DNA from: Candidatus Desulfosporosinus infrequens
GTDB taxonomy: Bacteria; Bacillota; Desulfitobacteriia; Desulfitobacteriales; Desulfitobacteriaceae
NCBI GenBank assembly: GCA_900290375.1
Contig: OMOF01000779.1
Span: 27,549-85,587, forward strand
Length of the DNA stretch: 58,039 nt
Reading direction: 5' to 3'
This document shows positions 44,249 to 45,946 of the stretch, piece by piece. Each line of letters begins with the position of its first letter. Positions within the stretch are counted from its first letter, which is position 1. Below the pieces are notes generated by a model that worked only from the letters and a program-made list of their open reading frames with translations, searched no databases and was not told the origin of the DNA. The translations under genes were made by a program, and so were the position numbers.

Positions 44249-45235
44249 ATGAAAAAATCCGAACTCTATCAACACCTTAACGTACAGCTAGATTTAGCAG
44301 TTGAAGCCCACCAGCTCCTTCGTGGGGAAAGCGGGGAAGAAATTCCCGGTGTCTTAATGGATGAACAAGAACTTGAACATGCCAAGGTCACAATCATTAC
44401 TGTTCAGACTGACGAAGGGGTTAAAGCGATTGGTAAACCAATAGGACAATACATCACCATTGATGCTCCCGAAATCCGTCAGAATAATTATATCATCCAT
44501 GAAAACATCACCCACATTCTAGCAGACAAATTAATTGAACTAATGAACCTTAAAGAAGATGCCAGTATTTTATTAATTGGGTTAGGTAACTGGAATGCAA
44601 CACCCGACGCCTTAGGCCCCCAAGTTATTAGCAAGACAATGGTTACCCGCCATCTTTTCCACCTCTCACCGGATGAATTACATGGCCAAATGCGAAAAAT
44701 AAGTGCTTTATCCCCTGGCGTACTGGGGATTACTGGAATTGAAACTGCTGAAATTATCCGTGGTATCGTGGAACATGTCAAGCCGGATCTTGTCATAGCC
44801 ATCGATGCCCTTGCCGCCGGCTCCCTAGAACGCGTTGGCACAAGTATTCAACTTGCTGATACCGGTATTCATCCTGGTTCTGGTGTAGGTAACCCACGAT
44901 CTGGCATTAACGAGGAAACAGTGGGCTGTAAAGTAATAGCCATTGGGCTCCCCACAGTAGTCAATGCTGCCGTAATTGCTCATGATGTAGTTGAAGGGGT
45001 TTTCAAACAATTCGTAACTAGCCCAACCTTGTATAAACTTTATAAGGGTATAAAACCTGAAATATTTAGTCAAATTATTGACGATGTTCTTTCTCCTTTC
45101 CAAGGAAACTTAATGGTAACACCAAAAGAAATCGATGATCTGATCAAGACCTCCGCTAAAATTATTGCTGGGGCCTTGGCGATCAGCCTACACCCTGGAA
45201 TTGACCGTGAAGACTATGAGCGTTACTTACAATAG
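44249..45235 (+). CDS. gpr: germination protease GPR
   Basis: A 328-residue protease that degrades the DNA-protecting small acid-soluble proteins when spores germinate; it is made as a zymogen. Recognisable sequence: LAVEAHQLLRGESGEEIPGV (near the pro-region junction), GLGNWNATPDALGPQV, IETAEIIRGIVEHVKPD and IDALAAGSLERVGTSIQLADTG. GGAGTAT precedes the ATG. It is followed by a terminator and a convergent SASP-like small gene. Confidence 0.95.
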   Translation: MKKSELYQHLNVQLDLAVEAHQLLRGESGEEIPGVLMDEQELEHAKVTIITVQTDEGVKAIGKPIGQYITIDAPEIRQNNYIIHENITHILADKLIELMNLKEDASILLIGLGNWNATPDALGPQVISKTMVTRHLFHLSPDELHGQMRKISALSPGVLGITGIETAEIIRGIVEHVKPDLVIAIDALAAGSLERVGTSIQLADTGIHPGSGVGNPRSGINEETVGCKVIAIGLPTVVNAAVIAHDVVEGVFKQFVTSPTLYKLYKGIKPEIFSQIIDDVLSPFQGNLMVTPKEIDDLIKTSAKIIAGALAISLHPGIDREDYERYLQ

Positions 45236-45255: not shown

Positions 45256-45307
45256 AAAAAAGAGAAGTGGGGCAAGTTGGTACATTACCGACTTGACCCA
45301 CTTTTTA
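45256..45307. terminator. terminator between gpr and the SASP-like gene
   Basis: A long imperfect stem (AAGTGGGGCAAGTTGGTA... against its near complement ...GACTTGACCCACTT) is flanked by A-runs and T-runs. It serves two converging genes. Confidence 0.85.
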
Positions 45308-45317
45308 CTTACTAAGC

Positions 45318-45446
45318 CTATTGTTGAGGCGAGTTGGGGAAAGTTTTGTGTTTACGACTAGCAATCCCAATCTCTTGAGCTACTTCATACTTGAATTTTT
45401 CTAATTCCGGTGTGAGTTGGACCATTGGTTTTGTTGTTTTAGCCAA
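45318..45446 (-). CDS. very short alpha/beta-type SASP-like protein
   Basis: A 42-residue gene found by reading the sequence directly. It starts at TTG 45446, six bases after GGAGGTG, and ends just before the shared terminator. The peptide runs MAKTTKPMVQLTPELEKFKY then EVAQEIGIASRKHKTF. The part LEKFKYEVAQEIGI matches the first conserved block of alpha/beta-type small acid-soluble spore proteins (typically ALDQFKYEIAxEFGV), including the Glu-(Ile/Phe)-Ala core cut by GPR. The second block (the Gly-rich DLTxRxxGxxGG) is missing. It may be a new short spore protein, a truncated one, or a GPR substrate or decoy; location beside gpr supports a spore link. Confidence 0.72.
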   Translation of the reverse strand: MAKTTKPMVQLTPELEKFKYEVAQEIGIASRKHKTFPNSPQQ

Positions 45447-45946
45447 AGCTTACACCTCCATAAATTTGTTAAGGCAGCAGACCTGCTTCGCTGCTGCCTA
45501 ATTAAGTTTTTACGCTTCAATGTGATATTATTATTCAACCGTTTGAACAAGATCATACTCGGCAATTCCTGCCAGAAATTCTAAATCTCATTTACTTTTC
45601 ATCGTTCGCAGAACTCACAAAAAAGATAGTTTGAAATCTGATCCTATTAAATCAGAATGAATACGTTGGGATACATGAGGAGAATGTCGCAATTGAATAT
45701 AAGGCATATGAAAGAAAATAGACTGGCCTACTGACTGGTTATTTTCTTGAATGTGCCTAAATTAAATCCAAAAAAACGACTGAAAACCTATGATTTTGTA
45801 TTTGTTTTAGCAGGGAATCAGTAACTGGTTAAAGAATTATTCATAGTAGAGATAATGATCGCGCTTAATCTGTTACAATGTTAAGATTTATTATATGGTT
45901 TTAATCTGTATCGTTGCATAAAAATATTTTAAAAGAGGAACATGTC
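45447..45946. other. spacer between the SASP-like gene and the amidohydrolase
   Basis: About 500 AT-rich bases. It holds an AGGCAGCAG...CTGCTGCCT stem (45472-45499) just upstream of the SASP-like gene. A weak sigma-G-like pair on the minus strand (TGAATA at 45532-45537, CGTAAAA at 45508-45514, 17 bases apart) is also present. A 55-bp terminal-repeat element lies at 45703-45757. No further gene is supported. Confidence 0.55.
45703..45757. repeat. 55-bp palindromic element sharing ends with 50819-51020
   Basis: GGCATATGAAAGAAAATA at the left faces GGCACATTCAAGAAAATAAC read inward from the right. GACTGG and its partner lie at the centre. The same two end sequences bound the larger element upstream of sdaAB. 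Confidence 0.8.

Follow-up and report, generated by a model that had tools for sequence, protein, structure and literature searches.

A short SASP-type gene facing gpr in Candidatus Desulfosporosinus infrequens, its relatives across Bacillota and a candidate RNA hairpin in its leader

The mini-SASP gene and its locus

The window analysed here is a stretch of 58,039 nucleotides from Candidatus Desulfosporosinus infrequens (contig OMOF01000779.1, positions 27,549 to 85,587). Within it, a gene for a 42-residue protein, hereafter the mini-SASP, converges on gpr, the gene of the germination (spore) protease (Table 1). An amidohydrolase gene (PF04909; 45914-46741, plus strand) sits between recG and the mini-SASP gene. 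A first-pass annotation, made from the DNA letters, had described a clean small gene that shares a terminator with gpr, and we found both descriptions to be accurate. Between the stop codons of the two genes lies the terminator-like hairpin, whose fold is strong whichever strand is read (-28 and -20.6 kcal/mol; z -8.0 and -4.9 against shuffles); it escaped a simple terminator scan.

The mini-SASP matches the Pfam SASP profile (PF00269) at 25.9 bits, against a curated cut-off of 22. The match covers only positions 8-28 of the 59 in the profile and residues 11-32 of the protein, and PF00269 also matches 17 of 17 aligned members of the mini-SASP family. NCBIfam gave no match, nor did a search of PDB by sequence, in which a full SASP query returned 2z3x. 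AlphaFold2 predicts a single helix (pLDDT about 85; mean for the protein 73), flanked by weakly ordered ends. As the first-pass annotation had read it, only the first SASP block is present: the Gly-rich second block (GG..[TV]KR..) was absent from the ORF, from any frame before gpr and from all mini-SASP homologues. Because this block was looked for and is absent, the protein is, on its sequence, best called an SASP-derived variant and not a canonical alpha/beta SASP.

Table 1. Features of the mini-SASP locus (positions in the window)
Feature	Position	Strand	Details
gpr, germination (spore) protease, convergent neighbour	44249..45235	+	TIGR01441, 391 bits; Pfam Peptidase_A25, 2.9e-95
Terminator-like hairpin common to gpr and the mini-SASP gene	45262..45306	.	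between both stop codons
Mini-SASP gene	45318..45446	-	42 aa; TTG start at 45446, stop at 45318; protein MAKTTKPMVQLTPELEKFKYEVAQEIGIASRKHKTFPNSPQQ
Basic tail replacing block 2	45321..45362	-	ASRKHKTFPNSPQQ; family consensus ANRKHKxFPN[ST]
SASP block 1	45363..45416	-	residues 11-28, LTPELEKFKYEVAQEIGI; AlphaFold2 helix 13-26
Glu21-Val22, equivalent of the GPR cleavage site	45381..45386	-	in the mini-SASP gene
Shine-Dalgarno GGAGGTG	45453..45459	-	6 nt 5′ of TTG
Leader hairpin	45473..45498	-	loop 45481-45490; GGCAGCAG-CGAAGCAGGT-CTGCTGCC; between promoter and Shine-Dalgarno
-10-like AATAATA, sigma-G-like promoter	45529..45535	-	18 nt from -35-like
-35-like GTATG, sigma-G-like promoter	45554..45558	-	18 nt from -10-like

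Conservation, the GPR site and distribution

A protein search (E≤1e-10) found homologues in 43 of the 46 genomes of Desulfitobacteriaceae, the family of Desulfosporosinus and its relatives; in one further family genome (G032) the gene is cut by the contig end. For many of the genomes with homologues, a scan of the genome collection named the genera Desulfosporosinus, Desulfitobacterium, Acididesulfobacillus and Paradesulfitobacterium. Over 27 members of the genus, pN/pS was 0.086 (pS 0.53, pN 0.046; 0.25 for the N-terminus, 0.024 for block 1, residues 12-28, and 0.055 for the tail), these being raw, uncorrected proportions over rows related by descent. Judged by its homologues and this substitution pattern, the mini-SASP ORF is a real gene under purifying selection.

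The first-pass annotation had equated the Tyr-Glu-Val-Ala core with the site at which GPR cuts SASPs, and had set its Val apart from the usual Ile or Phe. The equivalence stands: the site reads YE|VAQE, which fits the GPR recognition sequence E|[IVF]A.E in block 1, and in C. difficile EIA is the conserved sequence where GPR cuts SASPs (PMC8452069). Val at P1′, however, is not unusual, as a Glu-Val site occurs in 23 of the 45 full SASPs of the fetched loci, and the full SASPs of the D. infrequens genome itself read KYEVANE. Among 58 distinct mini-SASP sequences (one of which, L176, is a misfiled full SASP), P1 Glu, P2′ Ala and P4′ Glu are kept in all 58, and P3′ is Gln in 53, compared with 15 of 45 full SASPs. 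These sequences follow the pattern [LMI]E.[FL]KYE[VI]AQE[IM]G, then mostly 11-35 residues with no Gly-rich block, and the tails carry a net positive charge in all copies. At three loci (L079, L158 and L160), mini-SASP-like ORFs beside gpr have a different type of tail, with a common ADAL.KTD.GN-like motif.

We read gpr neighbourhoods across the phylum, and then ran a profile built from 27 mini-SASPs against 398 phylum genomes, considering matches of at least 34 bits. All 31 matches that were checked as mini-SASPs with gpr on the contig lie less than 2 kb from gpr and on the opposite strand. Outside these 31, the match in G331 is a full SASP and that in G382 was left out. The G331 protein (L285, 2079-2414, minus strand) has two tandem copies of block 1, each with the GPR site, and after them a repeated GGRIGGRIGG block. 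Clear mini-SASPs fall into 13 families (f1, f2, f3, f4, f9, f18, f32, f34, f35, f38, f66, f70 and f113) and weaker cases into f7 and f62. A protein consisting of block 1 and a basic tail occurs in at least 13, and probably 15, families of Bacillota. The comparison of the peptide with SASP families and related genomes proposed in the first-pass annotation thus returned both a PF00269 match and conservation at the side of gpr.

In several families the gene order is mini-SASP, one to three full SASPs, gpr, and the mini-SASP likely arose within such an SASP array beside gpr. In f1-f4 (f1 being Desulfitobacteriaceae), the mini-SASP is kept, with no full SASP seen to separate it from gpr. It is single copy in nearly all genomes. 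In G042 it lies 12 kb from gpr, and G022 has a second copy 8 kb off (L106, 4380-4511 and 12362-12493, minus strand), the leader hairpin described below being duplicated with the gene; the G022 copy closer to gpr has an altered leader without the usual promoter match.

Jointly absent from G044 and from five g19 genomes (G064-G068), several of them incomplete, are gpr, all SASPs and the mini-SASP, as would be expected if sporulation had been lost; neither gpr nor the mini-SASP was found in G027. The Desulfosporosinus MAG G026 has lost the mini-SASP at the locus despite having gpr and SASPs, and the gene is therefore not essential there. In G026 (L118, 1700-2080) the recG and gpr flanks remain, recG directly adjoining the gpr locus, together with a promoter-like remnant, GTATAATAATAA.

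The closest known relatives, the alpha/beta-type SASPs (PF00269; SspA-SspD, SspF/Ssp4), share with the mini-SASP the first block with its GPR site and a gene position beside gpr, and elsewhere the mini-SASP lies next to full SASP genes. The mini-SASP differs from them in having no Gly-rich block, only 42 residues, a basic tail, a single copy, near-constant Gln at P3′ and Glu at the helix start. The minor SASPs of Bacillus (SspG-SspP, Tlp) are likewise very small spore proteins, but are unrelated to it in sequence. In the passages of a sporulation-gene survey that we consulted (PMC3533761), most Bacillus minor SASPs are described as confined to Bacilli and the clostridial SASP types are given as alpha/beta, SspH, SspI and Tlp, with no mention of a block-1-only type; we found no mention of one in the openly accessible literature either. 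A protein of fewer than 50 residues is easily missed by annotation. In Moorella thermoacetica the SspA gene moth_0925 adjoins gpr (moth_0926), and its product was detected in spores (PMC8745062); that study counts it among the ordinary alpha/beta SASPs, and we liken it to the mini-SASP by gene position alone, as an SASP-type gene directly beside gpr.

The promoter-like site and the leader hairpin

Two features upstream of the gene, a sigma-G-like promoter and a covarying leader hairpin, go beyond the first-pass annotation. A GHAT(R)-N18-20-NATANTA-like site lies 5′ of the hairpin in 36 of 40 leaders, compared with 0.7 expected from simple letter shuffles, the related leaders not being independent in this count. 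Its GHATR-N18-NATANTA form resembles what we take to be the sigma-G consensus, and we infer that the mini-SASP would be expressed in the forespore together with the SASPs.

The hairpin has an 8-bp stem and a near-invariant loop of 10 nt, CGAWGNAGGY. Over 24 distinct sequences, 8 of 8 stem pairs are changed on both sides and 93% of cells pair; no shuffled or slid version approaches this covariation on these measures. Because stability alone gives z -0.6, it is the covariation that carries the case for the hairpin. A covariance model run on 83 genomes of the class gave 41 matches of at least 29.7 bits in 40 genomes, all of them directly 5′ of the mini-SASP gene, which places the hairpin there in 40 of the 46 family genomes. 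The next-best matches, with 29.2 and 28.8 bits, lie elsewhere, in G079. These moderate matches (C9:15163-15197 and C32:263-295) occur in a genome in which no mini-SASP was found. Rfam gave no match to the hairpin at E≤1, no tRNA was found in the mini-SASP leader, and no hairpin common with full SASP genes was found in the 83 class genomes. The hairpin would add a new candidate to the structured RNAs of spore formers. We disfavour a DNA operator because the stem shows compensatory changes around a constant loop, as fits RNA. Pairing of the loop with the Shine-Dalgarno and start region is unsupported (-6.2, compared with -5.3, sd 1.75, in shuffles).

Six family genomes are without the hairpin (G026, G027, G044, G037, G038 and G041). 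In the last three the mini-SASP is present and its tail diverges from the RKHK type, as do the tails of f2-f4, and mini-SASPs outside Desulfitobacteriaceae have no leader hairpin. The GPR tree allows either a basal or a nested position for G037, G038 and G041, so shared descent alone may account for the link between the hairpin and the RKHK tail.

Possible roles of the mini-SASP

Our leading, if tentative, reading, to which we give somewhat less than even weight, is that the mini-SASP is an exposed substrate or ligand of GPR, made in the forespore, that times or tunes the attack of GPR on DNA-bound SASPs. The protein would be one SASP-type helix with an intact GPR site and a short basic tail, produced alongside the SASPs. 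Full SASPs are locked onto DNA; without block 2 the mini-SASP would escape this and keep its GPR site exposed. It could then act as a preferred or first ligand or substrate of GPR, thereby setting the timing or strength of the attack on DNA-bound SASPs; it would probably be cleaved by GPR and degraded when the spore germinates. Its basic tail may keep it near nucleic acid.

We prefer this GPR-linked role because the mini-SASP stays at gpr where full SASPs no longer adjoin (f1-f4). Also consistent with it are the position of all 31 inspected genes, the presence of the site in all distinct mini-SASPs with its bias to Gln at P3′, the low pN/pS over the helix, the absence of the gene from genomes that have neither gpr nor any SASP, and the frequency of the sigma-G-like site in the leaders. 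However, proximity to gpr may in part be inherited from SASP arrays that lie beside gpr in many lineages, G026 dispenses with the mini-SASP, the G042 copy is distant from gpr, and contact with DNA would explain the conserved helix residues equally well. To our knowledge, zymogen processing and core dehydration are the only explanations given for the restraint of GPR until germination, and a conserved protein encoded next to gpr, as a third factor, is a direct candidate for part of GPR control. The wider claim, that the mini-SASP is an ancient and previously undescribed regulator acting on the germination protease, one that has stayed next to gpr in at least 13 Bacillota families and in Desulfitobacteriaceae also doses itself through a new leader hairpin, seems to us rather unlikely.

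We rate a role on DNA almost as high as a GPR-linked one. Helix 1 and the basic tail might bind DNA or dock on the SASP coat, as a cap, nucleator or spacer, with GPR merely clearing the protein. The first half of SspC, a protein solved on DNA (2z3x), is the counterpart of block 1, all tails are positively charged and the gene sits in arrays with full SASPs, but every mini-SASP is missing the Gly-rich block and nearly every genome has one copy, so that we hold such an accessory possible, if on the unlikely side. In Desulfitobacteriaceae, the tail (IANRKHKxFPN) might instead read the loop of the hairpin in its own mRNA and so set its own output. The 8 covarying pairs, the near-invariant loop and the position directly 5′ of the gene would suit such an autoregulator, as would the divergent tails of the hairpin-less G037, G038 and G041 and of f2-f4; yet with the GPR tree as it is these may amount to one event, mini-SASPs of other families do without the hairpin, and loop pairing with the start region is not above shuffles. 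We consider autoregulation distinctly unlikely.

A small forespore protein made for digestion at germination, as an amino-acid store, would account for the SASP-like size and the kept GPR site. We think this very improbable because the gene is single copy and the sequence constraint (pN/pS 0.02-0.06 in helix and tail) far exceeds what a store needs. The first-pass annotation had also allowed for a truncated relic of a full SASP, which an origin in the SASP array beside gpr would suit. We reject it, as scarcely credible, because the tail is under purifying selection; moreover, we found no frameshift, none of the frames before gpr encodes a second block, and the same domain make-up with an intact frame recurs across at least 13 families. 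Neither a lack of homologues nor a frameshift joining the frame to a full SASP was seen in the related genomes. The decoy or timing substrate for GPR that the first-pass annotation had proposed may apply: every copy has an intact site, and the proximity to gpr is strong. The interpretation given in the first-pass annotation is thus partly supported, and its suggestion of a new mini spore protein gains from the conservation, the purifying selection, the sigma-G-like promoter and the joint absence with gpr and SASPs.
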